Positions 983 through 22,977 of a stretch of DNA of 24,436 nt are shown piece after piece; position 1 is the first letter of the stretch; the number at the start of each line of letters is the position of its first letter. The position numbers were made by a program, and so were the translations under genes. The notes under the pieces were generated by a model. It saw only the letters and a list, made by a program, of their open reading frames with translations. It was not told where the DNA came from and did not search any database. Where the stretch lies: positions 1-24,436 of IMG/VR virus record IMGVR_UViG_3300009445_000016, one strand, 5' to 3'. This DNA is from a virus.

Positions 983-2722
983 ATGGCAGACGTTAAAATA
1001 TCACAACTAACCACGATTACACCAGATTTACTGGATGAAATCATCGTAAATGATGTTGTAGGCGAGTCTAAAACAACACATAGGGCAACTCTTCAAGACG
1101 TTAGAAATCTAGCAAATCAAAACATCGACGATATGTCAGCTGGTGGTGGTGGTGGTGCTGTCGCAGATGGAGATGGATCTAAAGTTACTGGTGATTTATA
1201 TGTGACTGGAAATATTGAGTTTGGTGAAGGTCTTAGTGACGGAACTACCACTATCAACGATCTTAGCACTCTAATCACTGAAGAAGAATTAAATATATTT
1301 TTAGAGGAAACAACCTCTAACGCAGTTAAAAAAATAGATGCTAAGTCTGCTGCGGATAGAACTGCCGCAGGAATTACACTTACTAATACCTTTGTTCCTT
1401 TTCGTTCTTTAGAAAATGGTTTTGATAGCACTAACACCGACCCGGGTTTTACTTATGCTGTAGACACAGGAATACTGAGCGCCCCATTCTTTAGTGGTGA
1501 TGGTTCTTTACTAGTAAATGTTGATAGTGCTTATCACTCTCAGACATCAGACTATGCTATTGCTTCAACATTTGCCTTCACAGCACTGGATGCTTTGCGT
1601 ATTAATACCAAAGATGCAGAAGAAACTGACGCCGATTATTATCCAACATTTGTTGGCCAAGTAGGAATTGATAGTGTTAATGTAGATCCGCAACTAACGT
1701 ATAATCCTAGCAGTGGTATTTTTGGTGGTGCTGCCACAGATGTTTTCTTTAGAGGCGACGGATCTTTATTAGAAAATGTTGAAGCATCAGGAACTCCTGA
1801 TGCTAATACTACAACAGTAGATGCGTTACACTCTATTATGTTTAGAGAACTAGCGACTGGTGATGATAGTACTAATACAGATCCTAGTTTATTATATAAT
1901 CCTGTTACCAACGAAATATCCGGCCTGACCGAAACGGATCTATTCATGTATGGTGGTTCACAATGGTCTAAAAAAACAGATTCTAAACAAATAACAGGTG
2001 TAGATACTAACAAATATTATCTGACATTCAAACGTAATTTGGACGATTTGGATAGTGTGCGTACTGAAACATCTTTTTTTATTCAAGATGATCCAAACGA
2101 TGTCGGAATAAAAACTGTATACGCTACGGCATTTAGTGGGGATGGTTCAGGGTTAACTGATGTGACAAGTGCCAGCGCTGACAGAGCAACATTGGTTGGA
2201 GTGACATCAGCCACTACTGAAACTAATGTGCACTATTTACACTTTGGAAGTATTTCTTCTGGTGATGATGGTGTAAATGTTTCTACCAATCTTATTTTAA
2301 GACCTAATACTTCCAAAATAAATGTGACCTCTAACACAGGATCGATTTCGTTTGGTGTGGATAGCGATGTTTCAATAACGACTAGTGGTATTCAATACTC
2401 TTTCAATGTTTCTAACAACGGCACTTCTGCCTATACTTTTAGTGATTTGAATAGTGTTTGGTTTCCATCAGCTACTGATAATCCTATACTTTATCTTAGA
2501 AGGGGTGAAACATATAGATTTGATATGAATATTACAGGACATCCTTTTAGAATTCAAAGCACCTCGGGTCTTGCTGGAACACCATACAACACTGGCGTCA
2601 CCAACAACGCAAGAACTACATTAGGATCTATCTTTTTTAGTGTTCCCATGTCAGCGCCAGCCACACTTTACTATCAGTGCGTGAATCATACGAATATGAA
2701 TAATACAATTAACATAGTATAA
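983..2722 (+). CDS. Fibre-like virion structural protein with repeats and C-terminal cupredoxin-like domain
   Basis: 579 residues. The N-terminus (MADVKISQLTTITPDLLDE) is the type that starts many tail-fibre/structural proteins of marine T4-like phages. A glycine run follows at 54-58. Residues 140-448 carry four related units with the pattern G.DS.N.DP.L.YNP.(S/T), at about 140, 223, 288 and 421. Three (S/R)GDGS(L/G)L motifs stand at about 171, 257 and 386. Such repeats are typical of trimeric beta-rich fibres. Residues 471-579 look like a cupredoxin: H520 in GHPF, then C566-x2-H569-x2-M572 near the C-terminus in a YYQC strand. This is the usual type-1 copper ligand set. It has its own late promoter, and only an AGAGAA-type weak ribosome site precedes the ATG. 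Structural role is likely; copper binding is inferred. Placement (fibre versus baseplate) is unknown. Confidence 0.75.
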   Translation: MADVKISQLTTITPDLLDEIIVNDVVGESKTTHRATLQDVRNLANQNIDDMSAGGGGGAVADGDGSKVTGDLYVTGNIEFGEGLSDGTTTINDLSTLITEEELNIFLEETTSNAVKKIDAKSAADRTAAGITLTNTFVPFRSLENGFDSTNTDPGFTYAVDTGILSAPFFSGDGSLLVNVDSAYHSQTSDYAIASTFAFTALDALRINTKDAEETDADYYPTFVGQVGIDSVNVDPQLTYNPSSGIFGGAATDVFFRGDGSLLENVEASGTPDANTTTVDALHSIMFRELATGDDSTNTDPSLLYNPVTNEISGLTETDLFMYGGSQWSKKTDSKQITGVDTNKYYLTFKRNLDDLDSVRTETSFFIQDDPNDVGIKTVYATAFSGDGSGLTDVTSASADRATLVGVTSATTETNVHYLHFGSISSGDDGVNVSTNLILRPNTSKINVTSNTGSISFGVDSDVSITTSGIQYSFNVSNNGTSAYTFSDLNSVWFPSATDNPILYLRRGETYRFDMNITGHPFRIQSTSGLAGTPYNTGVTNNARTTLGSIFFSVPMSAPATLYYQCVNHTNMNNTINIV

Positions 2723-2726
2723 TATT

Positions 2727-5700
2727 ATGCACAATCGGTTTGTAGATAAAAAACGTAGAAATATTAATCTGAGGGATATGCAGGTTAAGAATATTTTACC
2801 TGAACATTATGGAACTTATTATCCTAAATTTATTTCTTTGCTTGAACGTTATTACGAATTTCAAGATCAAGAATCTTCTACCGAATTATTAAATCATCTC
2901 TTCGCTACACGCGATGTTAATGAAACTGATATCACTTTGCTTTCTTACATAGAAGATGAATTACTTTTAGGTGAAGAATATTTTCAGGGGTTTGGTAAAA
3001 ATGATAGTGAACTTCGAGCCGCTGCCAATTTTTCTAATATTTTGTTTCGATCTAAGGGCACCAAATTTGCAATAGAGTGGTTTTTTCGTTCGTTCTATGG
3101 CGAAGATGTTGAGGTTTTGTACACAAAAGAAAATATTTTTAAAATAGGTGATGTGGATTCCCAAATTGGTCCTTTCGGATTAAAGTATCTCACCGATGAT
3201 AAATTATATCAAACTTTTGCATTGTTGGTTAGAACTGGTATTTCAATTTCAAAATGGAAAGAAGTTTTTAAATTGTTTGCTCATCCTGCTGGTATGTATT
3301 TGGGTGGAGAAGTTCTGATAGTAGACGAAGCTTCAACGCCTATTGTAACATTAAATGATGCTATTGATGCTTACACTAGAACAACATACACTATTACTGC
3401 GGCGGCATCTAACAATGAAGGTGTTGATTGGTTATTCACTGTAGATAGTTTGAATCAGAGAACGAATCAAGATGCTGTTTATTGGTACGGTGAACATATT
3501 GACACATCAGATGCTGACTTTGGTGTTAATTTTATTAATGGAGATACTGGATTACCACTATCCAATTCACCACAATATCTAGAAATGAATAACGGATCTG
3601 GTTCTTTTTCTATAAAGACGATAATAGATCCTAAAGGCACAGATCCTCTTGCACCCACTAACGAACAATTTAAGATATACATCAAAGATAGAAGTGATAG
3701 AATTGTAGCCGAAATGACATGCGATCTTGTCGATGTAATTCCTAATTGGCAATTAAACGTTTCACCGGGTACAACGATTGTTGAAGGTGATTCGTTGACG
3801 TTTACTTTGCTAGGTAATAAAGCAGAATTACCGTATGATGGTGAAAACACATTACGATGGTACTTAGATGAGACACTATCGACTGTTGTTGCAAGTGATT
3901 TCGAGGGTAATATACCAAATTCTGTTGGAACAGCCGAAGAGTTTACTGTTACGTCTTCTTCACCAACAGTAGCATCAGGTTTTTTTAATGTAAGTTCTTT
4001 AATTAACACAGGCAACACAGGTGATCAGACTGCAATTTTTAAAATTATAAACGTTAATAATGTCGAAATTGCATCTCAATCAATAACTCTTCAAGAAAGA
4101 ACCGTTTCTGTGGGCGTAACAGTGCCGAATACTGTTGAAGGTAATTCAATAGTGGCTAACGTTATAATAGGCGATTATGCAGACGGGGATACTCTGGCAT
4201 GGCAATTTACTGGAAATATATCTTCTGATTTTAGACTCTCAGCATTCTCTGGTTCATCAGTATATTCTCACAATGGTGGCGCTGGGACAAATATAACAGT
4301 AACCACAACGTCGAGTGATATTTTTCAAGACACCGTTACCGGTGCAATGGAAATTACCGACACGACTATACTAGGCACCGCAGTCGGAACTAGTGCGTCT
4401 TTTAATTTCACGGATCAAAGTTCAGTTTACAATATAATTGCTAATCCGACGACGGGTGGTGCGGTTCCTAATGAAACAATCACATACACTTTCGGTGGCA
4501 CAAATATACCTGATGGTGAATATTACTTTTATCTGGAATTTAATGATATTAATCCAAACGATTTTGCATCAGGTGATGCTCCTCGTATAACTCCAACTGA
4601 AACAATTTCAGCGGGGTCTTGGTCAACAGGCATAACCACAATAACCTGTGATTCGACAGAGTATATTGTCGGCGATAGACTTATTATCGAGGGTGTTACA
4701 CCTTCTGCCTATAATGGTGGAGAAGATGGATCTTTTGTAGTTACTTCTAAAACTGTTACTACTCTTTCGTATACACAAACAGTTAGTCCAGGCACTTTTG
4801 TGTCAGGTGGAACAGTAAAAAGTCGTATAAGACCTATAGCAATGTCGGGTAATTCTGGATCAACTACTTTACAGTTTAATGGAACACCACCCAGCTCCCA
4901 ATTAGCCTTTATAGTTCATTTAGCTACTACCAATACCTCATCTCCGAATGATGTGGCCGAGCTGTCTCAAGTTACTTCAGGCACTCCTCCGTCGATTGTA
5001 GGTTCCCCAACATCTCAACAAGAAGGTGAAGATATAACCTTCACAGTTCTTGCTAATGGATTTACTCCTGGAACTTGGAAATATTGGTTTGTGGGTGACA
5101 TAACTGCAAACGATATTTCCACTCCTTACGGTGACATTAACAATAAACAAGATTTTACTGTTGATGGTTCAGGCAATGGTGAAATTGTTGTTAGTATTGT
5201 ACCTGATCAAAATCGTGAGGGTAATGAAACTTTTAGTTTGGTAATAGGTTCCGCTGCAATAGGCAATCCTCCTGTTGCTCAATCTAATACTGTAACGATC
5301 ATAGACTCTTCAACACCAACTACAACTGTCAGCAACTATACAGCATTGACCGGTAGTATAGAGGCATTAACAGTTACTGAAGACGATAATTTATACATAG
5401 GCGTAACCTCAACCGGTAATCAACTTGTCGATATACCTTTTACTGTAACAATATCAGGAGCAGGCGCAGCTAAATATACTTCATCATCTGAACAAATAAC
5501 TAATCCTGCTATGGGAGGTGGTACTTCATACGTCACATTCACTGCAATGGGTGACGATGGAACTCCTGATGGTCCTAGAGATATTGATATAACAGTAACA
5601 GAGAATCAGGGCAGTACAGAAATAGCAACTAAAACCATAACGTTAAATGATGCAGCAGTAGGTTATCAATTAAATTATTTGGGATTTGATGGAGGTGGTG

Positions 5701-6758
5701 TAGGCGGCACTGTTCCCGAAGGCTCGATCTCAAATTTCGAAATTGTAGCTAACAATGTTACTTTACCACAAGATGTTCAAGTTCGTTTAGAAGATTTTGT
5801 GGTGTTTCCATCTGGATTAGTTGCGAGCGGTACGAATCAAATTAATTTATTTTATCTTCTTGGTACCAATGTGCCTCCTGGAATTCCAGAAGTCATCAAT
5901 ATAGGTGAAGAGGTTTGGGTTGATGTGAGTGGTACTGCTACATTTATAGGTAACGTAATTGCTGTTCAAGGATATAATCCTCCGTTCCCTGGCGAACCAT
6001 ATACTTCTATTTTTCTAGATAGGGATATTTCATTATCTACCGCCCTTTACAATTTAAACGTTATAGACCCACTTAAAGGCGCAAGATCATTTAACGTCCC
6101 TTGGATTGATATAAATGTTAATGAGTCACCTAAATCAGTAAATCTAATCACGAATGCACAAACAGCCTTTACTGGAGATAAAACTTATAATTTTGAATTA
6201 TATGAAACATTGCCTCCAGATATTACAGGGGCTAGACCACTTGATGGAGAGCCTGTTGATCCTACGACTGTAATTACTATTAATCATCCTGCGACCACAG
6301 TTAACATAACGCCTACTTATATCGTATCTACTGGAAACGTCGAAGCAACAGCTGGTTTTACGTTATACCCTAATGGTAACATGACGGCAAGCCCATCTAG
6401 TGGTGATGATCCTGTAGATATTACTCCTCCTATAGATATAGCCGATTGGTTATCATCTCAGGTAAATGGAGTTGGTGGTGCATATCAGGTCCAAGCATAC
6501 TCTTACGTTTTGAACCAAGCTCCTGTTAATAAAAATGCACTAGGAGTTACAGGAGTTGGTAGTTCTGGTGTATGGACTAATTTTGGTGATCAATGGCATC
6601 GTTTAAATGAAGAGTTCACGATCAGTCTTTTCTCGGAACGAGGCGATCTAGAAAGAGATATTCAAATAGTAATTAAAGAGTATTCAGGAACATTAGGCAC
6701 AGGTAACACGGTGTTTGGACCTCATACTATATCATTAGCTGCGTTGACGAGTAATTAA
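2727..6758 (+). CDS. Large baseplate-wedge-like structural protein with an array of Ig/Calx-beta-like domains
   Basis: 1343 residues. Residues ~18-200 form a conserved head seen at the N-terminus of large structural proteins in marine T4-like phages: ILPEHYGTYYPKF, LLERYYEFQD, FRSKGTKFAIEWFFRSFYG, then KLYQTFALLVRTGIS and FAHPAGMYLGGEVLI. I read it as a virion (probably baseplate) attachment domain. The rest is a chain of beta domains beginning at about 220, 342, 463, 568, 754, 865 and 979, several with Calx-beta marks (VEGDSLTFTL, QEGEDITFTV, REGNETFSLVIG). A Trp-containing module in the domain at 754 (KYWFVGDITANDIS) echoes one at 463 (LAWQFTGNISSDF). Two inserted modules appear at ~623-700 and ~1041-1102. 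There is no clear ribosome site for the ATG at 2727, which lies 4 bases after the previous stop, so reinitiation is likely. The ATG at 2778 is an alternative. An extended spike or fibre role is inferred. Confidence 0.72.
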   Translation: MHNRFVDKKRRNINLRDMQVKNILPEHYGTYYPKFISLLERYYEFQDQESSTELLNHLFATRDVNETDITLLSYIEDELLLGEEYFQGFGKNDSELRAAANFSNILFRSKGTKFAIEWFFRSFYGEDVEVLYTKENIFKIGDVDSQIGPFGLKYLTDDKLYQTFALLVRTGISISKWKEVFKLFAHPAGMYLGGEVLIVDEASTPIVTLNDAIDAYTRTTYTITAAASNNEGVDWLFTVDSLNQRTNQDAVYWYGEHIDTSDADFGVNFINGDTGLPLSNSPQYLEMNNGSGSFSIKTIIDPKGTDPLAPTNEQFKIYIKDRSDRIVAEMTCDLVDVIPNWQLNVSPGTTIVEGDSLTFTLLGNKAELPYDGENTLRWYLDETLSTVVASDFEGNIPNSVGTAEEFTVTSSSPTVASGFFNVSSLINTGNTGDQTAIFKIINVNNVEIASQSITLQERTVSVGVTVPNTVEGNSIVANVIIGDYADGDTLAWQFTGNISSDFRLSAFSGSSVYSHNGGAGTNITVTTTSSDIFQDTVTGAMEITDTTILGTAVGTSASFNFTDQSSVYNIIANPTTGGAVPNETITYTFGGTNIPDGEYYFYLEFNDINPNDFASGDAPRITPTETISAGSWSTGITTITCDSTEYIVGDRLIIEGVTPSAYNGGEDGSFVVTSKTVTTLSYTQTVSPGTFVSGGTVKSRIRPIAMSGNSGSTTLQFNGTPPSSQLAFIVHLATTNTSSPNDVAELSQVTSGTPPSIVGSPTSQQEGEDITFTVLANGFTPGTWKYWFVGDITANDISTPYGDINNKQDFTVDGSGNGEIVVSIVPDQNREGNETFSLVIGSAAIGNPPVAQSNTVTIIDSSTPTTTVSNYTALTGSIEALTVTEDDNLYIGVTSTGNQLVDIPFTVTISGAGAAKYTSSSEQITNPAMGGGTSYVTFTAMGDDGTPDGPRDIDITVTENQGSTEIATKTITLNDAAVGYQLNYLGFDGGGVGGTVPEGSISNFEIVANNVTLPQDVQVRLEDFVVFPSGLVASGTNQINLFYLLGTNVPPGIPEVINIGEEVWVDVSGTATFIGNVIAVQGYNPPFPGEPYTSIFLDRDISLSTALYNLNVIDPLKGARSFNVPWIDINVNESPKSVNLITNAQTAFTGDKTYNFELYETLPPDITGARPLDGEPVDPTTVITINHPATTVNITPTYIVSTGNVEATAGFTLYPNGNMTASPSSGDDPVDITPPIDIADWLSSQVNGVGGAYQVQAYSYVLNQAPVNKNALGVTGVGSSGVWTNFGDQWHRLNEEFTISLFSERGDLERDIQIVIKEYSGTLGTGNTVFGPHTISLAALTSN

Positions 6759-7136: not shown

Positions 7137-8724
7137 TACATATCAATATAACCACCTAGTAAAAAAAGACGGTGTAGTTCAAGAATGGACTAAGGATGAA
7201 GTAGTAGAGTATGCGAAATGTATGTCAAATCCTGCGTATTTTGCTGAGACCTATGTCAAAGTTATTTCGTTGGACAGGGGTCTTGTTCCTTTCAATCTTT
7301 ACCCCTATCAAAAAAGTATGTTCAATCACTTTAACAACAATCGTTTTAATATTGTACTTGCTTGCCGACAATCTGGCAAGTCAATTTCGTCTGTCGCCTA
7401 TCTTCTCTGGTACGCAATCTTCAACCCCGAAAAAACAATCGCAGTTCTCGCAAACAAAGGTTCCACTTCGAGAGAAATGCTCGGGCGTATTACTCTCATG
7501 CTTGAAAATCTTCCATTCTTTTTACAGCCTGGTTGTAAGACTCTCAATAAGGGCAGTATCGATTTTTCTAATAATTCTAGGATTGTTGCTGCTTCTACCA
7601 GCGGGTCTTCTATTCGTGGTATGTCTGTCAATTTGCTCTATCTCGATGAGTTTGCTTTTGTTGAGCGAGCATCTGAATTTTACACTTCCACCTATCCTGT
7701 TGTCTCTGCCGGTAAAGATACAAAAGTTATCATCACGTCTACGGCAAACGGTATCGGGAATATTTTCCACAAAATCTGGGAAGGTGCGAATCAAGGAGTA
7801 AACGAATACGTTCCATTCAGAGTTGACTGGTATGACGTGCCTGGTCGTGACGAGAAATGGAAAGCAGAAACTATTGCTAACACTAGTCTACTCCAATTCG
7901 ACCAAGAATTTGGAAACACTTTCTTTGGTACAGGCGATACTTTAATTAACGCCCAAACACTTATGCAATTACGCGCCAAACAACCTAGGTCATATCGAGA
8001 AAATGGCGATCTTCTCATATACGAAGAGACTGTAGCCGAACATGAATATGTCATGACGGTAGACGTATCAAAAGGAAGAGGACAGGACTATTCTACATTT
8101 ACTATAATCGACATTAGCGTGAAACCTTTTCAGCAGGTGGCTGTGTATCGCTGTAACACTATCTCGCCTTTGCTCTTTCCTAATATTATCTATAAGTATG
8201 CGAAAGTCTACAACGAAGCTTATGTTGTTATAGAAGCAAATGATCAAGGTTCACTGGTATGTAATGGTTTGTATCAGGATTTAGAATATGAAAACATGCA
8301 TGTTGAGTCCGTCACCAAAAACAAAATGGGTATTGAAATAACTAGAAAGACTAAACGAATTGGTTGTTCTGGTATTAAAGACTTATTAGAAGAAGGTAAA
8401 TTAGAAATACATGATGAGAATACTATCATGGAAATATCAACCTTTATTGCTAAGGGTGTTTCATATGAGGCTAGTGATAACAACCACGACGATTTAATGA
8501 TGAACTTGGTTATGTTTGGTTACTTCGCTACAGGTACTTACTTTAATGATATAACAGATATCAATATGAAAGAGATGTTATTTAATCAGAAAATGCAAGA
8601 GATTGATGATGATCTTGTGCCGTTTGGTTTTCACGATGATGGCAGTGACCTGATAGATCTATTAGAATCACAAGAAGAGATGAAAGATAAAGGTTGGTCA
8701 ATACCCTTTGAGTCGGAATGGTAA
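7108..8724 (+). CDS. gp17: Terminase large subunit gp17 (packaging ATPase and nuclease)
   Basis: 538 residues from the ATG at 7108, chosen because AAAGGTGA lies 9 bases upstream; a TTG at 7099 and an ATG at 7126 are alternatives. The protein packages DNA through the portal and cuts the concatemer at headful. The ATPase domain shows Walker A CRQSGKS (86-92), Walker B LLYLDE (176-181, with the catalytic Glu) and the coupling motif TSTANG (210-215). The RNase H-like nuclease shows D319 in VDVSKGRGQDYS (T4 LDCSEGRGQDY), E376 in VVIEANDQG, and the HDDL pair at 460-463. All key residues are present. T4 gp17 has 610 residues; this one is shorter at both ends. It overlaps gp16 by 29 bases, which suggests coupled translation. 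Leucine codons in roughly 7280-8190 are mainly CTT/CTC, then TTA dominates. Confidence 0.97.
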   Translation: MPQAIRMSNDTYQYNHLVKKDGVVQEWTKDEVVEYAKCMSNPAYFAETYVKVISLDRGLVPFNLYPYQKSMFNHFNNNRFNIVLACRQSGKSISSVAYLLWYAIFNPEKTIAVLANKGSTSREMLGRITLMLENLPFFLQPGCKTLNKGSIDFSNNSRIVAASTSGSSIRGMSVNLLYLDEFAFVERASEFYTSTYPVVSAGKDTKVIITSTANGIGNIFHKIWEGANQGVNEYVPFRVDWYDVPGRDEKWKAETIANTSLLQFDQEFGNTFFGTGDTLINAQTLMQLRAKQPRSYRENGDLLIYEETVAEHEYVMTVDVSKGRGQDYSTFTIIDISVKPFQQVAVYRCNTISPLLFPNIIYKYAKVYNEAYVVIEANDQGSLVCNGLYQDLEYENMHVESVTKNKMGIEITRKTKRIGCSGIKDLLEEGKLEIHDENTIMEISTFIAKGVSYEASDNNHDDLMMNLVMFGYFATGTYFNDITDINMKEMLFNQKMQEIDDDLVPFGFHDDGSDLIDLLESQEEMKDKGWSIPFESEW

Positions 8725-9251
8725 TGCAGAATTTTCAGATAATTTATCCATTGAAGAATACCGATATAGAATCTATTTTAAATATTTACAACAGATTTCC
8801 CGTTAGAATTATACAACAAGAACACGAATTGTTTTATGTTGAAAAACGAGAAGTTGAAAATGAAAATGTATGTGTAAGACTAGACGCTTGGGTTCAGAAA
8901 AAATACCGTTTAAAAAATAAATCACATCACTTTTTAAGACTTGATAAATGGTCGTGGATAAAAAGTCATAGACCACAATCACCCAGAACAATTATTACGA
9001 TGCTTGAAAAATCAGAGGATCTAGTTGGCGGTCATATGTTATTGACGGATAAACATTATGATCTACCACGATTAACTAAGGATCATGAAATCATTGGTGA
9101 TAGTATGCATCGTAGTACAGTGGTTCCTAGTACTCCAAAATTAGATATTGGTGCTAGTCTGAGTTACACACCAGAAGCATTGCCTGCAATGACTCAGGTA
9201 GAGCAGGGCCATCAAATAGTCTTAGTCAGTCAATATGTTAAGAATTCATAA
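8718..9251 (+). CDS. Uncharacterised protein between terminase and tail sheath genes
   Basis: 177 residues from the ATG at 8718, overlapping the gp17 stop; a second ATG at 8724 (TAATG) gives two residues fewer. I do not recognise the family. No signal peptide, membrane segment or catalytic motif is visible. Residues 1-95 are mixed alpha/beta, rich in aromatic and basic residues (HHFLRLDKWSWIKSHR). The C-terminal third is Pro/Thr rich and looks extended. T4 has nothing between genes 17 and 18. Position in the late operon and overlap with gp17 suggest a virion, tail-assembly or packaging role, but this is only context. The ORF is preserved over its full length and has phage-like codon use, so it is probably a real gene. 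Confidence 0.75.
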   Translation: MVMQNFQIIYPLKNTDIESILNIYNRFPVRIIQQEHELFYVEKREVENENVCVRLDAWVQKKYRLKNKSHHFLRLDKWSWIKSHRPQSPRTIITMLEKSEDLVGGHMLLTDKHYDLPRLTKDHEIIGDSMHRSTVVPSTPKLDIGASLSYTPEALPAMTQVEQGHQIVLVSQYVKNS

Positions 9252-11731: not shown

Positions 11732-13447
11732 ATGGCAGACAACGATAACGCATTTCTGAAATTATTTGGATTTGAACTGAAACGAACAAAGAAAGTCGAG
11801 AGCAAAATGCTTCCTTCTATTGTTCCTCCTACTGACGATGACGCCGCTGGTTACATTAGTACTGGTGCTGGCGCATATGGTCAGTATATTAATATGGATG
11901 GTGATCAATCCAAAGATAATGCACAACTTATAATGCGTTATCGTGGTGTTGCTATGAATCCTGAAGTAGATATGGCTATTGATGAAATTGTTAGTGAATC
12001 TATCGTTGCTTCAGAGTTAGAATCTTCGGTAGAATTGAAATTAGATGAGATCGAAGCACCTAAGAAAATTAAAGATCAGATTCAAGAAGAGTTTGATAAT
12101 ATTATTTCACTTATTAAGTTTAACGATTTAGGCCATGATATTTTTAGATCGTGGTATATTGATGGGCGAATTGTTCATCATCTTCTAGTCAACGAGGCTA
12201 ACACTAAAGCGGGTATTCAAGAGATACGACACATTGACTCAGCTAAGATCCGTAAGGTTCGTGAAGTCAAGTACAAAAAAGATCCTAAGACTGGCGTTAA
12301 AATCGTAGATAATATTGAAGAATACTACATCTATGAAGAGAAGCCAGGAAGCAACACCGTTCAAGGTGTTAAGATGTCTACTGATGCGATTAGCTATGTG
12401 ACTTCTGGCTTGCTAGATGAGACTAAAAAGAAAGTTGTATCACACTTACATAAAGCATTAAAACCTATTAATCAATTGCGTATGATGGAAGACTCGTTGG
12501 TCATCTATCGTTTAGCACGAGCACCCGAAAGACGTATCTTTTATATTGATGTTGGTAACTTACCTCGTGGTAAGGCCGATCAATACATGAAAGATATCAT
12601 GACTAAGTATCGTAACAAACTAGTCTATGATGCGTCTACTGGGCAGATCAAAGATGATCGAAAGCATATGTCTATGCTTGAAGACTTCTGGTTACCTAGA
12701 CGAGAAAACGGTCGTGGTACAGAAATTTCTACACTTCCTGGTGGCGACAATCTGGGTCAAATCGATGATATCATTTATTTTCAAAAGAGATTATATCGTA
12801 GTTTGAATGTACCTGTCAATAGGCTGGAACAAGAGGCCCAGTTTTCTTTGGGTCGTTCAACAGAAATCTCACGAGACGAAGTAAAGTTTCAGAAGTTTAT
12901 TGACAGGCTTCGTCGTAGGTTTGGAGGTGTATTTCTAGGCATTCTCAAGAAGCAGTTGATCCTTAAAGGTATCATCACTGCTCAAGATTGGGAAGAATGG
13001 AAAGATGATATCTACGTTGACTATATCAAAGACAATCATTTCTCTGAGTTAAAAGATCAAGAAATTCTTCAGAGTCGTATTGGTCTAATGAACGAAGTCA
13101 CTCAGTATGTGGGTGAATACTTCAGTAAAGATTGGGTCATGCGAAACGTTCTTATGTTTTCTGATGATGACATTGAAAAAATGCAAAAAGATATTGACAA
13201 AGAGATTTCTGCTGGTGATATTCCAGATCCTGAAGAAGAAGCTGCTGCTGAAAGAGAAGCACAGAACGCGCCTCCTGAACCTACACCAGTGCGGGTGGTA
13301 GAGCCTAAGAGTGAAACTGAGCGTCAGAAAGATGCAGAAGACGCTAAGAAGAAAAAGGAAAAGAAAGAAGCATATATACCTACAGGTGAAGATGAGTTGA
13401 TGGAAGAAATGACTAGGTTTATGAGCAAGTTGAATGAGCAAAATTAA
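11732..13447 (+). CDS. gp20: Portal vertex protein gp20
   Basis: 571 residues from the ATG at 11732, chosen because AGGA lies 6 bases upstream. The in-frame TTG at 11708 lies in the T-run of the hairpin and is unlikely. The dodecameric portal starts prohead assembly, is the channel for gp17-driven packaging and connects to the neck. T4-like signatures include MRYRGVAMNPEVDMAIDEIVSE near 69-90, the RIFYIDVGNLPRGKADQY block, and VPVNRLEQ followed by GRSTEISRDEVKFQKFIDRLRRRF near 361-397. T4 gp20 has 524 residues. The extra length is largely a charged C-terminal tail rich in Glu, Lys and Ala (about 495-571), predicted disordered or helical. The last 14 bases overlap the collagen-like gene. Confidence 0.96.
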   Translation: MADNDNAFLKLFGFELKRTKKVESKMLPSIVPPTDDDAAGYISTGAGAYGQYINMDGDQSKDNAQLIMRYRGVAMNPEVDMAIDEIVSESIVASELESSVELKLDEIEAPKKIKDQIQEEFDNIISLIKFNDLGHDIFRSWYIDGRIVHHLLVNEANTKAGIQEIRHIDSAKIRKVREVKYKKDPKTGVKIVDNIEEYYIYEEKPGSNTVQGVKMSTDAISYVTSGLLDETKKKVVSHLHKALKPINQLRMMEDSLVIYRLARAPERRIFYIDVGNLPRGKADQYMKDIMTKYRNKLVYDASTGQIKDDRKHMSMLEDFWLPRRENGRGTEISTLPGGDNLGQIDDIIYFQKRLYRSLNVPVNRLEQEAQFSLGRSTEISRDEVKFQKFIDRLRRRFGGVFLGILKKQLILKGIITAQDWEEWKDDIYVDYIKDNHFSELKDQEILQSRIGLMNEVTQYVGEYFSKDWVMRNVLMFSDDDIEKMQKDIDKEISAGDIPDPEEEAAAEREAQNAPPEPTPVRVVEPKSETERQKDAEDAKKKKEKKEAYIPTGEDELMEEMTRFMSKLNEQN

Positions 13448-14429
13448 TCCCGTTGTAACCGCTGCTTTTGGTATAGCACATACACAAAAACAGATAGGAG
13501 ACTTAGAAAATCGTATTATAGATATGATTGAACAAGTGCAAACTCTTAAAGGAGAAAAGGGTGACAAAGGAGATATTGGTGAACGAGGACCAGCAGGAGG
13601 ACCACCAGGACCTCAGGGACCAATCGGTCCTTCAGGCGGTGAAAAAGGTGAACAGGGAATTCAAGGTCTTGATGGCGCTCCTGGCAAGGATGGACCAAGA
13701 GGAGAAATAGGTCCTAGAGGGTTAAAGGGCGAAAAGGGCAATACAGGTATCGCAGGTAGGCCTGGAAAAATTGGTGCAAAAGGCGATAAAGGAGTCAAAG
13801 GTGATAAGGGAGATAGAGGTCCTACCGGAGAGCGTGGAGAAATTGGTCCGAAAGGCGAAAGAGGTAGTAGAGGCGAAAAAGGAGATGTTGGTGCGACTGG
13901 TCCAGCAGGACAAGATGGAAAAGACGCTCCCGATTATAGAGAACGATTCGAAGACGCTCTAGCACAATTTAACACTAAACTCACTGAGAACACCAGCACC
14001 GTAAACAAGAATGTTGAACGCACTCTTGCTAATGTTCAGAAATCATTATCATCTCTTGGCGGTGGTGGTTCATATAAAATTGTGGATAATGCAGACGTAG
14101 ACAAGGCGGCAATAACAAGTCTAGTAGACGATGCAGTTCTTATATACGACCCATTGAAAAAGAAATTTGTCGCTCAGTCTTTTCTGAGTATTCTTGATAG
14201 ACTAAAGGCAGACTTAGAAGTGCAATACGATAAACTAGTAGACGAAGACGCGACTAATTCATTTACCTACGTAGGTGAAGCAGTGCCTGGCACAAGTAAG
14301 TCTGATGCTATATGGAGAATTAAAAGAATAAAAGAATTTGTTGACGGAGATCTCGAAATTATTTGGGCAGAAAACTCAGCAGAGTTTGATAAAGTTTGGA
14401 ATGACAGGGCTACATACGAGTATAACTAA
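13434..14429 (+). CDS. Collagen-like fibre protein
   Basis: 331 residues. N-terminal residues 14-38 are helical with heptad spacing and could nucleate a trimer. Residues 40-164 are collagen-like: 6 Gly-X-Y triplets, one extra Pro, 3 triplets, one extra Gly, then 32 unbroken triplets (41 in all), rich in charged triplets such as GEK, GDK and GER. Residues 168-207 are again helical. The final ~55 residues (FTYVGEAVPGTSKSDAIWRIKRI, then IIWAENSAEFDKVWNDRATYEY) form a small C-terminal domain common at the end of phage tail-fibre and structural proteins. The product is most likely a trimeric rod on the virion. It overlaps the portal gene by 14 bases and shares TAATG with the next gene, so translation is probably coupled. 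Attachment site and target are unknown. Confidence 0.85.
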   Translation: MSKINPVVTAAFGIAHTQKQIGDLENRIIDMIEQVQTLKGEKGDKGDIGERGPAGGPPGPQGPIGPSGGEKGEQGIQGLDGAPGKDGPRGEIGPRGLKGEKGNTGIAGRPGKIGAKGDKGVKGDKGDRGPTGERGEIGPKGERGSRGEKGDVGATGPAGQDGKDAPDYRERFEDALAQFNTKLTENTSTVNKNVERTLANVQKSLSSLGGGGSYKIVDNADVDKAAITSLVDDAVLIYDPLKKKFVAQSFLSILDRLKADLEVQYDKLVDEDATNSFTYVGEAVPGTSKSDAIWRIKRIKEFVDGDLEIIWAENSAEFDKVWNDRATYEYN

Positions 14430-17293
14430 TGGCTGTACCTACTCTCACAAATACTCCAACAATCATCGATACAGCAGATGCTACTACAAACTGGTCAGGA
14501 GGTTCTGCTGAACCAGATGTGACTATCGATGAAAATGGCTCAATTAGTGAAACACTTCGAGCGAATGGTGCAACCCTATCCGTTACTACAAGTTTTACGT
14601 CTGCCGGAAATCATGTTCGTGGTTGGTTTCAGTTCACGGCCGTTCCCGACTTAGACTTTATTGATTTCGAATTGAATGGTGGAACTGCAACTTACATTTT
14701 GTTTGATGGACCAGGGGGAACAAACTCTGGCTCTGGTGTACCAAGATATCGAGGTGGTTGGTTCTATGTGCTCGTTGATTTAGATGCGACACCGGATTCT
14801 GGTACAGTTCCTACGACAACAACCTCGATCGGTTATGAATTTAATCGTGTTTCCCAGCCTCGGAACGTAATCAATACTTTTGCTGATGTTCTGTGGCGAG
14901 GTGACGGATACACTTGTACAGGAGGAACTTCTGGTGATCCTATTACGTTTGAAACCATCGCCAGTGCAGATGCATCCGCAGGTCTTTATTATGGTGTAGT
15001 TCAAACTGTTCGTGATACTACTTTTATATTTGGTGCCGTTACAATAGGTTCTGGTGCTACGGCAACATATTGCACAGTTGCAAACGAAGCAATCATTTTC
15101 GATGATCAGAGATTGGCCGCAACTGACCTTTATAAAATTATTGCAACAGGATCTGGTGCTACATTTGATGCAACAAACTCTCTCTTTAAAGGTAATGGTG
15201 CTCAGACTTTTGATTTCGACATGTCTGCCGTTAATACTTTGATTTGTGATACTAATGTATTGATTCAAGCAGTGCCAACATTTGGTTCAAGCCAAAGCGT
15301 CGAATCATGCACATTCATTAATTGTGGATTAACAACTGGAGGTGGAGCAACATTTACCGGCTGTACGTTTGATGAATCAACTTCCGCAAGCTCACTTACT
15401 CTTACAGCACTTACACAAATCGTTGATTGTGAATTCATGAGCGACGGATCAAACAATGCGGTTGAATTAACAGGAACAGTTCCTTCGGAGTATACTTGGA
15501 ACCATACTTCTTCAGGATATCTTGCCGGATCTCTTGGTGATTTTACTACGGGCACCAACGTCAACGCAACTCTTTACATCAATCCAAGTGCTACCTCAAC
15601 AACAGATTTAATATTGAATATTCCTATAGGTACTACTGTTCCAAGTATTCGATTTGGGGCAAACTACAGTGGCACTGTTACTGTTCGAAATGCACCGAAA
15701 ACTATTGATGTTAACGTGAAAGATGAAGATGGGGTTAATGTATCTGGCGCATTTGTTTGGTTGAATGATGGTGTTATCACCATCTTTAATGGTACTACTG
15801 ATGCGAGTGGTAATATTCCACAACAGGATTATGTTGGTTCAAACAACACTACGCTAAGAGTACGAAGATTTGGCGACAAACCATTTGAAACAACTTTGGG
15901 TACTTCAACAAGTTCAGTATCACAGTTGGTAACACTTGTAAACGACAGACAGCAAGTAGCGGTACCTACACTTAATCAAACATATACAATCAATACGACT
16001 GCCTCCACGATAACAGTATCGGGTGGGTCTGGTAGTGTTGTCCATACAGATTATACTACACTCGATACTGCACAAAACCTATATGAATTTGTAATGAATA
16101 CTTTTGCTGCTACGGCTTTCATGGAGTTTTCAGTACCGTTAGAATCAATTACAAACAATCAATATAATTTCATCAATGGTTTTACTTTTGGTGCGAAAGA
16201 TATTGATTACAAATATATCTATGAAGGTTCATTTACTGATACTGCTAATAATCTATTGTGGTCTAACGTTAAAACAATTGGTACACAGGAAGCAGGAACA
16301 AGCATTTATATTGTTCAAGGTGTAGAAGCATCTGATGCTGCTTTGACTTCTTGGTGGCCCGATGGAAATATCAATGTGCTTGTGAAAGTTGAAGACGGAA
16401 CATTCATTCAGTCAACCGACGATACAGCAACTAATGTCAATGGTGGGGTTTGGTTGTTTGCAAGAGAATATGGTGATCTATACGATCACTTCTTTTCTGA
16501 CCTATCCAATGGTGGGCAGAATATTGTCGCACTTTCAACTTTACCAGATTTGAATAATGAAACCGCTTCTGGTACGGTGGCTGGATATACAAACGTAACA
16601 ACAACCTTTGGGTCAACCTCACAAGATATTGGTGACGGCGCGGGTAATCAACCCTATAATGTTATAGTTGATTGTGCAAATAGACCTTTAACTGAAGTTT
16701 ACGAACGTCTCAAATATATTACATCATTTGATTTCTCAGCAACAGTAGATGGTGATGATGGATTTGAATATCGTAATGCGAACGAGACTGCGGGAACATA
16801 TACAGACACCAAACAGTCTCCGTTTGGAACATTCGCGGGTGGTAAATTCTTTGGTGCAAGGGGGGTGTGGTTAAATAATATTCCTTCCGCTGACGCTAAT
16901 AATATCGAACTGCTTGATGCGAATAATGTAGTCAGAACACCACCTTTGACAGCATCTTTTGTATTGACTGGATTAAAGGATGGTACTGAAATTCGAATAC
17001 ACGATTATGCGGACGATAGTGTTATTGCCGGTGTTGAGGATATGACTGGCGGCACAGGTACTTCAACAACTTCTGTTGTAGGTACTGTCACAATTAGTGG
17101 AAGTACTGATGATAACACATTTACATATAATTATCCAGTTTCGACTCCTGTTTCAGTATATGTGAGAGTATTAAACTTAAATTATATTATTCTATCACTT
17201 GGGCGACCAGTTGCTCAGGCGATAGTCTTAGATGATGAAAACATTTCTATTCCTATCAGTCAACAGATCGATAGAAATTATTTTGACGAATAA
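14429..17293 (+). CDS. Large virion structural protein, beta-helix-like N-terminal half, paralogous to the 17386 gene
   Basis: 954 residues, starting at the TAATG overlap with the collagen-like gene. Residues ~1-160 are beta-rich. Residues ~180-390 have short repeating strands with Asn/Thr/Ser turns and recurrent CTF/CEF steps (VESCTFINCGL, FTGCTFDES, IVDCEFMSDG), as in right-handed parallel beta-helices. Residues ~428-475 resemble a carboxypeptidase-regulatory/transthyretin-like fold (DEDGVNVSGAFVWL...TDASGNI). From ~545 on, two blocks align with the 749-residue protein: NLYEFVMNTF...SITNNQYNFINGF with its YSFLKYLW...SITNEQFEFSNGW, and VYERLKYITSFD with its VYEFAQWALRRD. No signal peptide or membrane segment is seen. 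Beta-helix phage proteins often bind or cut surface sugars, but I see no catalytic signature. An adhesin or virion-surface role is inferred. Confidence 0.75.
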   Translation: MAVPTLTNTPTIIDTADATTNWSGGSAEPDVTIDENGSISETLRANGATLSVTTSFTSAGNHVRGWFQFTAVPDLDFIDFELNGGTATYILFDGPGGTNSGSGVPRYRGGWFYVLVDLDATPDSGTVPTTTTSIGYEFNRVSQPRNVINTFADVLWRGDGYTCTGGTSGDPITFETIASADASAGLYYGVVQTVRDTTFIFGAVTIGSGATATYCTVANEAIIFDDQRLAATDLYKIIATGSGATFDATNSLFKGNGAQTFDFDMSAVNTLICDTNVLIQAVPTFGSSQSVESCTFINCGLTTGGGATFTGCTFDESTSASSLTLTALTQIVDCEFMSDGSNNAVELTGTVPSEYTWNHTSSGYLAGSLGDFTTGTNVNATLYINPSATSTTDLILNIPIGTTVPSIRFGANYSGTVTVRNAPKTIDVNVKDEDGVNVSGAFVWLNDGVITIFNGTTDASGNIPQQDYVGSNNTTLRVRRFGDKPFETTLGTSTSSVSQLVTLVNDRQQVAVPTLNQTYTINTTASTITVSGGSGSVVHTDYTTLDTAQNLYEFVMNTFAATAFMEFSVPLESITNNQYNFINGFTFGAKDIDYKYIYEGSFTDTANNLLWSNVKTIGTQEAGTSIYIVQGVEASDAALTSWWPDGNINVLVKVEDGTFIQSTDDTATNVNGGVWLFAREYGDLYDHFFSDLSNGGQNIVALSTLPDLNNETASGTVAGYTNVTTTFGSTSQDIGDGAGNQPYNVIVDCANRPLTEVYERLKYITSFDFSATVDGDDGFEYRNANETAGTYTDTKQSPFGTFAGGKFFGARGVWLNNIPSADANNIELLDANNVVRTPPLTASFVLTGLKDGTEIRIHDYADDSVIAGVEDMTGGTGTSTTSVVGTVTISGSTDDNTFTYNYPVSTPVSVYVRVLNLNYIILSLGRPVAQAIVLDDENISIPISQQIDRNYFDE

Positions 17294-19894: not shown

Positions 19895-22384
19895 ATGGCA
19901 GGCGAAAAGAGATATACTAGGATACCACCGGAGAGTACGGGTGACCGTTTGTACATGGTCCATACTGCCGAGATCGAATTTGTTCAAAAATTAGATGCAC
20001 AAGGTGGAGATACCGATCACGTTTGGAATGTTGGTAAACGATATGACATTTCTGGATTTTTAGGTGGTGATGTTCACGTTCACGGTGTTTATGATAAAGG
20101 TGATGGTACAGGTATTCTTGCGGTTCACTACAACGCATCTGCTAAATTTGAAAATGCAGTACCCGAAGCGCTTGCAGTAATTTCTTATAACGGTACTCCC
20201 ATCTGCAAAGTAGGAGTTGCATACGATGTTTATGTTCCTACAACACACCTTATGGGATACGACAATCCAGAGTATGGATTAGAAATTGATCGTTTCGGCG
20301 CGGCAAACATTAGGTTTTCGGAAGGACAACCAGAACTTGCGGCATATGGTCAGTTGCGTATTGCTAACTCTAAAGTTCTTGCCAGATACAATTTTGATGT
20401 TAGCGCAATGCCTGATCAATTTGCTAACTCTCTTTTAGGTTCTGGCACAGCAGTTTGGGATCCAGGTAAGAAATGGATACGTCTTGGTTTAGAAGGCAAT
20501 CTTGGCAATGGCGCTTCTGGAGACCTTGCAACAAACACTTCGCATCTCTATCACCCATTATCATATGGTTCTGGCGTCTTCGTTATTATGGGTACTGTGG
20601 TTCCTGATACTGGTAAAGCAACCTGTGTGAGAAACTGGGGACCATTTGATGCAACCGATGGATTTATGTTCCGTCTTACTGGGTCAGGTCTTTCTGTCGT
20701 ACACCGTAGAACCTTTGACGGTGTTCAAACCGAAACAGTCATATCACAGGCAAATTGGAACGGAGATCGTCTGGATGGTGCTGGTGGCAACAGCAACAGA
20801 TCAGGTGTGACACTTGATGTCACAACGGCAAACCAATATTTCTACGATTATCAAGTTTTGGCGGGAGGTTCTATTCGTTGGGGTATTATCATCAACGGTG
20901 AACGAATTATCTGTCACGAAATGGATATGAGTAATCGAACTGACATTGGATGGCAAACAAATGCTATCGGATTAAGCGCAAGACCTGTCTGTTGGGCAAC
21001 CAAGAGATTGTCTGCTCCAACCGAAGATACTGCTGATTATTTTTATGCACTGGGTGGTGGTGTTTGGACTGATGCTCAAACTGACCCTGTTCAAGAATTG
21101 GGAAAGGCAGGATCTTTCGACGAAACGTTCGTGTTCGATAATAAAGTAACTACTGCGGGTGTTCCATATACGCAGGGTGCTTATTACTTAACCTCAATGC
21201 GCCCTATCAGTGTATATCCTGCTGGTTCTCCTGCCGCTGGACAGTTCAATCATTCGTTATATGCACCTGAAACTATTCGTCTTAATTGTTTTAACCAAGA
21301 TGGGACTTTTCCTGATGGTGAACTTCGAGTATTCTTGAAGTGCATTCTTCGAGGAGAAAAATGGGAAAATCCCAGTTATAGCACAATAGAACGAGACGGC
21401 GATGCGGCTACTTCGGTTGATGGCATTCGTGCTGTATACAACGCCAAAGCGCAGCACATTGGTCACGGACCAGAAATTCTTCGAGTGCCTATACGAAACG
21501 GTGTGTCCGAGATAGATCTTGAAAGGTTGTTCGACAATATTCAATATGGTGCGGTAAGACCCAATACAGAAGTAGGTCTTTCAAAACGTAAACAACCGCT
21601 AACTAATATCACTGGTAATGTAGATCGTTACAACAGAGGTATTCCTCGTGTAGAAATCGAAGTTGGACCAGATCCCGAACGAGGCGGTAACATTCATTAC
21701 TTCGAAGAAAAAGATCGAATCGAACTTAAAGATATTGTTGATGCGGGAACAGATGGTCCAGCAACATTACTGAACAAAGCATTCTATATGTCTTTCTTGT
21801 CAAGTAACGATGCTTGGTTGTATGATAGCGATGCGGGTGGGTTATCATTACTCGAAAATGATCGTAATACACGAATCATAAACTTCACACCCTCTACTGT
21901 TCCGGTAGGAATTAACATTCTTTCCCCGAGCAATCAAGACAGCGCACAAGTTGCAGGCGCGGGAACTGCACTTGTTCTTGATTATGATTCTGATAATGGT
22001 CGAATATATCTTGAAGGTAGAAACAATGCTCTGTTAGACACAGGTCTTGCGGGTGGTACTGCATTCACAGTTAAAAATAGTACTGGATCAACATTGTTGA
22101 GTACAACATTAACTTCTATTAACACAGTGGGCGTTAACAATTATCCGTTAGATTATAAGACTTCTTTGAACGCAGTTAGTTCGTCTGGATGGGCAACTCC
22201 AGCATTCGATTTAGTGAATGAAGGTAATGTAGAAGGTGAACCACCACCCGCGCCAGTTTGGACATTTATGTACAATCCAATTGGTGGAGATGATCTTGGG
22301 TTCCAGCCTGGTGGATCACAACCATCGGCACCGGATCGAACGTATATAACATTCAACGTTGTGTGGAAAGAACTTAATCAGTAA
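19895..22384 (+). CDS. Tail-associated structural protein with lectin-like (ConA/LamG-type) domain
   Basis: 829 residues. A GGGGAA ribosome site lies just upstream. The N-terminus (RYTRIPPESTGDRLYMVHTAEIEF) and the following ~130 residues are of a type found at the start of marine phage tail proteins. Residues ~153-350 form a recognisable module seen in several phage fibre proteins: GQLRIANSKVLARYNFD, MPDQFANSLLGSGTA, FRLTGSGLSVVHRR, ANWNGDRLDG, and the INGERIICHEMDM strand. Its beta-sandwich pattern suggests a concanavalin/laminin-G-like fold. Residues ~350-570 contain a second conserved stretch (VPIRNGVSEIDLERLFDNI). The last 70 residues are Pro/Gly rich and end in a beta strand. Host-surface glycan contact is a reasonable inference but no ligand-binding residues can be assigned. 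It shares TAATG with the next gene, suggesting coupled translation. Confidence 0.75.
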   Translation: MAGEKRYTRIPPESTGDRLYMVHTAEIEFVQKLDAQGGDTDHVWNVGKRYDISGFLGGDVHVHGVYDKGDGTGILAVHYNASAKFENAVPEALAVISYNGTPICKVGVAYDVYVPTTHLMGYDNPEYGLEIDRFGAANIRFSEGQPELAAYGQLRIANSKVLARYNFDVSAMPDQFANSLLGSGTAVWDPGKKWIRLGLEGNLGNGASGDLATNTSHLYHPLSYGSGVFVIMGTVVPDTGKATCVRNWGPFDATDGFMFRLTGSGLSVVHRRTFDGVQTETVISQANWNGDRLDGAGGNSNRSGVTLDVTTANQYFYDYQVLAGGSIRWGIIINGERIICHEMDMSNRTDIGWQTNAIGLSARPVCWATKRLSAPTEDTADYFYALGGGVWTDAQTDPVQELGKAGSFDETFVFDNKVTTAGVPYTQGAYYLTSMRPISVYPAGSPAAGQFNHSLYAPETIRLNCFNQDGTFPDGELRVFLKCILRGEKWENPSYSTIERDGDAATSVDGIRAVYNAKAQHIGHGPEILRVPIRNGVSEIDLERLFDNIQYGAVRPNTEVGLSKRKQPLTNITGNVDRYNRGIPRVEIEVGPDPERGGNIHYFEEKDRIELKDIVDAGTDGPATLLNKAFYMSFLSSNDAWLYDSDAGGLSLLENDRNTRIINFTPSTVPVGINILSPSNQDSAQVAGAGTALVLDYDSDNGRIYLEGRNNALLDTGLAGGTAFTVKNSTGSTLLSTTLTSINTVGVNNYPLDYKTSLNAVSSSGWATPAFDLVNEGNVEGEPPPAPVWTFMYNPIGGDDLGFQPGGSQPSAPDRTYITFNVVWKELNQ

Positions 22385-22977
22385 TGGCATTTATTCACCA
22401 TCAATACGGTAACAACTGGAATTGGGATCCTGTTCTCGGGTATCCCAATCAGAAGGTATCATTCGATGCTTGGAATCGTTTAATTTATGTTGCAGAAGGT
22501 GTTACAGAAGTAAATGTAACTATCGACATATACTCTGCATGGAAAGAATGGATACTTGGTTCGCCAGAATATCCTCATCCTAGTGCTGCTCTTCAAGCTA
22601 TCAGCGTGGTTGGTGGTGATCCTATTACAGATACCAGAGACTTGGGTGCTACATTCTTCTTAGAAAATGGATGGAGAATTGTACCTTGGCCGTCAGGCGC
22701 AGGTTATGTTTTAACCATTGAAGGTAATATATACACACGAGAAACAGGTGGTAATCCTGTTATACCGGAATCAAATGTTACTATATCATTAACACGATCA
22801 AACTTGATTGATGTGGTTACTATTAGTCCCGAGTCGGTTACTATATCTAACGCAGACATCGCATCTATAGCAGATGCCGTTTGGAACGAAGCGATAGCGG
22901 ATCATCAGAATCCTGGCACTACTGGTTTGAAACTTAAGAAGAGTCTAAATAAAACGCAATACATTGCAAGGATATAA
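22384..22977 (+). CDS. Conserved phage tail-associated protein
   Basis: 197 residues, starting at a TAATG overlap with the gene above. The pattern VSFDAWNRLIYV..GVTEVNV..DIYSAWKEW, then VGGDPI, FFLENGWRIVPWP and LTIEGNIYTRE, is one I recognise from tail structural proteins of many tailed phages, including siphoviruses. The C-terminal DIASIADAVWNEAIADHQNPGT is another recurrent phage tail motif. The fold is mainly beta, with a helical tail (LKLKKSLNKTQYIARI). The tight coupling with the 829-residue gene suggests the two products form one assembly. Exact position in the tail is unknown. Confidence 0.75.
   Translation: MAFIHHQYGNNWNWDPVLGYPNQKVSFDAWNRLIYVAEGVTEVNVTIDIYSAWKEWILGSPEYPHPSAALQAISVVGGDPITDTRDLGATFFLENGWRIVPWPSGAGYVLTIEGNIYTRETGGNPVIPESNVTISLTRSNLIDVVTISPESVTISNADIASIADAVWNEAIADHQNPGTTGLKLKKSLNKTQYIARI
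22944..22951 (+). promoter_or_regulatory. Possible late promoter variant (TCTAAATA)
   Basis: TCTAAATAAAAC lies inside the end of the 197-residue gene, 26 bases before the ATG at 22978, the usual distance. It differs from TATAAATA at one base and shares its AAAAC tail with the 23451 site. A similar TCTAAATAAG occurs inside gp16 (6970-6979), so chance is possible. Confidence 0.35.

Follow-up and report, generated by a model that had tools for sequence, protein, structure and literature searches.

A predicted cupredoxin domain with a type-1 copper ligand set at the C-terminus of a marine phage fibre-like protein

The window described here is the whole stretch of DNA that was analysed, a viral record of 24,436 nucleotides (24.4 kb) with T4-like structural genes. 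These include genes for a tail sheath stabilizer, a fibre, terminase, sheath, tube, portal, prohead and protease. In relatives the fibre gene likewise follows the sheath stabilizer gene and precedes that of the 1343-aa protein, and the source of the fibre gene is a marine T4-like phage.

The neighbouring genes have features of their own. In the cut open reading frame (ORF) at 1-942, the match to the tail sheath stabilizer is confined to the first 105 residues, and the part beyond resembles cadherin/Big-type repeats (TPTIGYVGTDSFVYRV). The 1343-aa protein (2727-6758) has its best PHROG matches (head closure / baseplate wedge) only in the first ~160 residues, past which it resembles repeated Calx-beta-like domains. 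A collagen-like Gly-X-Y protein lies at 13434-14429; its first 14 bases overlap the portal gene's end. Proteins of the structural cluster at 14429-17293 (954 aa), 22384-22977 (197 aa) and 8718-9251 (177 aa) have no PHROG match.

The fibre gene, which is the subject of this analysis, consists of the following parts:

983..2722, + strand: fibre-like virion protein of 579 aa, with the domain at its C-terminus (ORF translation; phrog_677 match)
983..1132, + strand: N-terminal anchor-type segment beginning MADVKISQL, about aa 1-50 (alignment A5)
1133..2389, + strand: shaft-like middle part with repeated F-x-GDGS-x-L-x-NV units (scripted motif search)
2390..2719, + strand: C-terminal cupredoxin domain, aa 470-579 (AlphaFold2 pLDDT 93.9, pTM 0.87; PDB fold matches)
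2540..2542, + strand: H520, the first ligand position, within G-H-P-F (conservation; precedes the model strand aa 522-525)
2678..2698, + strand: ligand loop C566-V-N-H569-T-N-M572 (AlphaFold2 strands; alignment A4)
2678-2680, + strand: C566, the sole Cys of the 579-aa protein
2687-2689, + strand: H569 (ORF translation)
2696-2698, + strand: M572 (ORF translation)

The C-terminal 228 residues (aa 352-579) match phrog_677, “baseplate wedge tail fiber protein connector”, of the PHROG tail category, at E 1.2e-28. At the other end of the protein, the MA..KI..L start is invariant in 11 syntenic relatives (alignment A5) and belongs to a segment common to other “KISEL”-type fibre proteins. By inference, aa 1-50 form the virion anchor. 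Residues 1-469 have no match in the PDB, including none to a solved baseplate protein. Because its own N-terminus matches no solved baseplate protein, the place of this protein in the virion is inferred. The structure of the shaft is also unresolved, the full-length AlphaFold model of the 579-aa protein having a pLDDT of 36, which is unusable.

A sequence-only reading of this DNA had proposed that the protein ends in a cupredoxin-like domain with all four ligands of a type-1 copper site. The last 110 residues read ...GHPFRIQ...YNTGVTNN...LYYQCVNHTNMNNTINIV, and the ORF translation confirms H520 and C566-x2-H569-x2-M572 in the proposed order; the interval given for the domain, 2393-2719, corresponds to aa 471-579, that is, to the whole domain. 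The same reading had likened the loop to that of amicyanin. C566-VN-H569-TN-M572 does have the amicyanin pattern C-x2-H-x2-M, and the title of PDB entry 2vmj gives its grafted loop as CTPHPFM, which is the amicyanin loop. A C-x(2-5)-H-x(2-5)-M motif is absent from the other proteins of the window (14 proteins scanned).

The domain was modelled with AlphaFold2 from window positions 2378-2719 together with 74 relatives (model m3823e30d8a48). The model has eight strands, with a pLDDT of 93.9 and a pTM of 0.87. In it, H520 stands immediately before the strand aa 522-525, C566 ends the penultimate strand (aa 561-566), and the loop with His and Met runs into the last strand (aa 573-578). Foldseek against the PDB places rusticyanin at the top (E 2.6e-5), followed by Cu nitrite reductase, AcoP, amicyanin, pseudoazurin, plastocyanin and laccases; among the matches listed, all are cupredoxins or multicopper proteins. 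VIA-align superposes 93 residues on the N-terminal cupredoxin domain of Hyphomicrobium copper nitrite reductase (2dv6) with Z 11.3 and 1.9 A, and 96 residues on rusticyanin with Z 10.3 and 2.5 A. The domain thus qualifies as a cupredoxin-type Greek-key beta-sandwich. It also meets the description of a type-1 site, with the order His...Cys-His-Met, the Cys ending the penultimate strand, and His and Met before the last one. A common fold alone does not show function, but here the ligands accompany the fold.

Other structural relatives of the model were found among giant virus “beta-sandwich proteins” in BFVD (Pithovirus LCPAC302/304, Marseillevirus LCMAC201; E about 1e-6 to 1e-5). Some structural relatives bear the name YHYH domain; this identification was rejected, since YHYH is a different, predicted zinc-binding domain (PMC7824862).

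Sequence comparison also links the domain to blue copper proteins. On its own, the window domain stays below all Pfam and NCBIfam cut-offs, and Pfam, PHROG and NCBIfam assign it to no copper family. It does not match Copper-bind (PF00127) at the curated cut-off, and is therefore not filed in that family; nor does it match the NCBIfam amicyanin model TIGR02657. Among 74 relatives, however, 23 match PF00127 at E <= 0.1 (best 1e-4), and the NCBIfam models for amicyanin, halocyanin, plastocyanin and pseudoazurin weakly match 12, 9, 7 and 6. A profile of eight relatives (A1), run against all PDB sequences, gives nine matches with plastocyanin first (E 0.03); they include Cu nitrite reductase and amicyanin, and the C-x-x-H columns coincide. 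A wider profile (A2) gives no clear sequence match in the PDB, and matches such as a cerato-platanin entry and congerin were set aside as chance. Profile E-values against PDB sequences are therefore weak evidence, and this part of the argument rests on the fold search.

The phage domains were also aligned with genuine PF00127 proteins fetched from bacterial genomes (alignment A4). Only six columns are invariant, four of them the ligands, and hhalign of the domain profile against genuine cupredoxins pairs the Cys and His columns at E 2.7e-5. A 148-aa secreted protein from a Prochlorococcus MAG (L231), with a C-x2-H-x4-M loop, bridges the phage domain and the plastocyanin family, because it passes the PF00127 cut-off and has a phage-like HPF motif. 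It is almost certain that the domain has a cupredoxin fold with a type-1 ligand set. The proposal of such a domain, with a complete and conserved ligand set on a phage fibre-like protein, is thus borne out by sequence, profile and fold comparison.

The closest known systems are the small type-1 copper proteins (plastocyanin, amicyanin, pseudoazurin, rusticyanin). They share with the window domain the cupredoxin fold, the same order and topology of His...Cys-x2-His-x2-Met and, in amicyanin, the loop length. The window domain differs in being joined to the end of a phage fibre protein, with no signal peptide, and in having HPF rather than the usual HN after the first His. The phage domain also has a conserved YNTGVTNN loop. 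The window domain is too distant for Pfam and NCBIfam cut-offs, and copper has not been shown in it.

A second group is defined by the At5g54830-like domain (PF25489), matched by 47 of 74 family members at E <= 0.1, but not by the window domain itself. It occurs in secreted bacterial lipoproteins of Marinifilum, gammaproteobacteria and a planctomycete. These keep H/C/H/M and fall in one tree with the phage domains, from which they differ in being stand-alone or otherwise fused, and secreted by cells. Lipoprotein-like secreted proteins encoded by cells were likewise found in Marinifilum, a Bdellovibrionales MAG, flavobacteria and gammaproteobacteria. Some matches in MAGs are phage contigs binned with bacteria, such as L087, which agrees with viral contig L012 in length and match.

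In phages the domain is widespread. By tblastn it occurs in 353 phage records, most from phages of Synechococcus and Prochlorococcus and a few from Pelagibacter phages or further marine phages. Podoviruses also carry it, and some phages have two or three copies. Many fibre or baseplate proteins of marine phages end in it, on differing N-terminal anchors. An example is gp9 of cyanophages (phrog_677), where the same C-terminal domain is found in S-SSM5, P-SSM4, S-RIM12 and many others. Isolates, S-SSM5 and P-SSM4 among them, have it at the gp9 C-terminus, and in P-TIM40 and S-TIM5 the genes or their neighbours are annotated as virion structural. The name “cupredoxin” was not found on the phrog_677 and cyanophage gp9 records examined. 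As a separate observation, the S-SSM5 protein downstream of gp9 (L112) contains diverged copies of the cupredoxin motif, which the 1343-aa protein of the window does not.

S-SSM5 gp9 begins with a region homologous to T4 gp9/gp10 (E 1e-4 to 7e-4), whereas the N-terminus of the window protein is of the MADVKISQL type. The domain is therefore a module carried on several anchors. For the same reason, and since the N-terminus of the window protein has no solved match, naming its gene gp9 would go too far.

Conservation of the ligands was examined in 147 distinct domain matches. Five of these, being a diverged second domain or partial matches, were excluded from the ligand count (the “ECHK” rows L148, L149 and L151 and the partial rows L167 and L168), leaving 142 alignable relatives. 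The search patterns of this main scan, GETYRFDM and PYNTGVTN, exclude the ligand residues, so that the sample is unbiased for ligands. Frequent loss of the Cys or His in homologues would have refuted the proposal; it was not seen, as 137 of the 142 keep H/C/H/M. By redundancy-weighted conservation in 145 distinct relatives, the top positions are Y564, C566, H569, H520, G508 and M572, with F513 level with M572. Since all four ligands rank among the six most conserved positions, the set is not a matter of chance. H/C/H/M was also found in 50/50 cyanophage gp9-type copies in a separate scan, and in all full-length domain matches of 17 fetched isolate-phage regions.

The exceptions are of two kinds. 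Single ligands are changed in L111, which has no Met, and in L146, where the second His is Tyr. In the three ligandless sequences L033 (S/S/D/M), L080 (N/S/N/M) and L117 (D/S/N/M), both His and the Cys are gone together; these are the only alignable relatives that lack the His at position 520. The tree requires at least two independent losses. The remainder of the domain is intact, and the ligands make up three of only five or six changes within the 25 most conserved columns (hypergeometric 0.02-0.03 per sequence, uncorrected for relatedness). L033 is the closest full-length relative outside the near-identical group of the window, and both ligandless lineages occupy the window's gene position.

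At this gene position, some relatives (L036, L038, L039, L056, L080, L117) have a split fibre, in which an ORF of 333-386 aa is followed by one of 235 aa. The separate 235-aa ORF carries the cupredoxin domain, and the ligandless L080/L117 lineage is among these.

Because both His and the Cys were lost jointly, twice, from a domain otherwise intact, a role in a metal site is favoured over a role in the fold. Such a loss is what would be expected if all three strong ligands hold one metal, so that selection on them is relaxed at the same time. It also suggests that the metal is unnecessary for the fold or persistence of the protein. Since two lineages persist without the ligands at just this gene position, the protein can do without metal in some phages.

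These observations bear on what the domain might do. It could be simply a beta-sandwich adhesin of cupredoxin descent, whose four residues serve packing and bind no metal in nature. Ligandless relatives with otherwise intact domains fit this, and copper is scarce both in the cytoplasm and in seawater, as is generally known. Packing, however, leaves unexplained why two His and the Cys rank at the top and why they change jointly to Ser/Asn/Asp, twice, and this reading is considered unlikely. A working redox centre, in which the fibre tip swaps electrons with surface or periplasmic redox proteins of the host, or senses redox to trigger attachment or ejection, would make use of the complete type-1 set. 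With its axial Met and short amicyanin-type loop, the set has the arrangement of electron-transfer cupredoxins, and the main known hosts are photosynthetic. It is nevertheless quite improbable, since no partner protein is known, a docking patch is without data, the domain also occurs in marine phages of unknown, possibly non-cyanobacterial hosts, and two lineages do without the site. A bolder reading, that redox-active type-1 copper sits at the fibre tips of marine T4-like phages, is loaded from host copper at lysis and is needed for adsorption or ejection, is speculative and again unlikely; if true, it would be the copper analogue of the iron “Ferrojan horse” and would put cupredoxins to a new use.

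Metal on the fibre might instead be recognised by a metal-uptake receptor in the host outer membrane, a copper “Trojan horse” like that proposed for iron on tails. This is very doubtful: there is no evidence for a receptor, and a type-1 copper generally lies mostly inside the protein that provides its ligands, a poor setting for direct recognition. The near-universal retention of the ligand set in ocean phages does agree with it, and fibre-tip metal has a precedent in iron at the HxH sites of T4 gp37 and in the HxH motifs of marine phage fibres, for which a role in attachment has been proposed (a hypothesis discussed in PMC11705849). What the two cases would share is a metal on a fibre with a suggested part in attachment. 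The iron sites, however, are octahedral and formed by His pairs, in contrast to a type-1-like site inside a cupredoxin fold.

The best explanation is a metal-binding cupredoxin knob on a virion fibre that acts as an attachment surface, and as a whole it is held with moderate confidence. It draws on sequence, fold prediction, profile-aligned ligand equivalence, conservation, coordinated loss and wide occurrence. A place in the virion is inferred, with support from the PHROG tail category, the structural annotations in P-TIM40 and S-TIM5 and the T4-like start of S-SSM5 gp9. Counting against the explanation are the lack of any Pfam or NCBIfam cut-off match for the window domain by itself and the two lineages that persist without the ligands. 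Binding of copper, or of another thiophilic metal, in the virion is probable, although there are no binding data and the ligand distances are unmeasured. The metal is most probably copper, but this is inferred, and nothing in the analysis identifies it. That the domain serves mainly as a metal-stabilised knob, for attachment or structure, and not for electron transfer, is a little better than an even guess; direct evidence for attachment is lacking. A redox role, or recognition of the metal by a receptor, is possible but unsupported.

Under this explanation, H520, C566, H569 and M572 would form a mononuclear type-1-like site, most probably for copper, in a domain inferred to be the C-terminal knob of a presumably trimeric fibre on the tail or baseplate. 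Synthesis in the host cytoplasm would leave the site empty or reduced. Loading is inferred to come later, at lysis or afterwards, with copper that may be set free from the periplasm or from plastocyanin. The bound metal would then join the strand of the first His and the ligand loop near the C-terminus, giving a rigid, stable tip for attachment. Copper as the stiffener of an attachment tip is likewise an inference.

Cupredoxins and metal (iron) on phage fibres are already known. The literature searched, which leaves out most subscription papers and preprints, contains no report of this domain or of a type-1 ligand set on phage fibres. Annotation gives this widespread domain of marine phages, with its blue-copper-type site, no other names than “tail fiber connector” or “hypothetical”. 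A ready-made comparison is offered by natural relatives that occupy the gene position of the window without the three strong ligands, so that the question can be tested in cultured cyanophages. Since almost every related marine phage retains the site, metal is probably present on the machinery with which these viruses attach. If copper is bound, phage particles would be copper carriers in seawater, and their adsorption may respond to copper.
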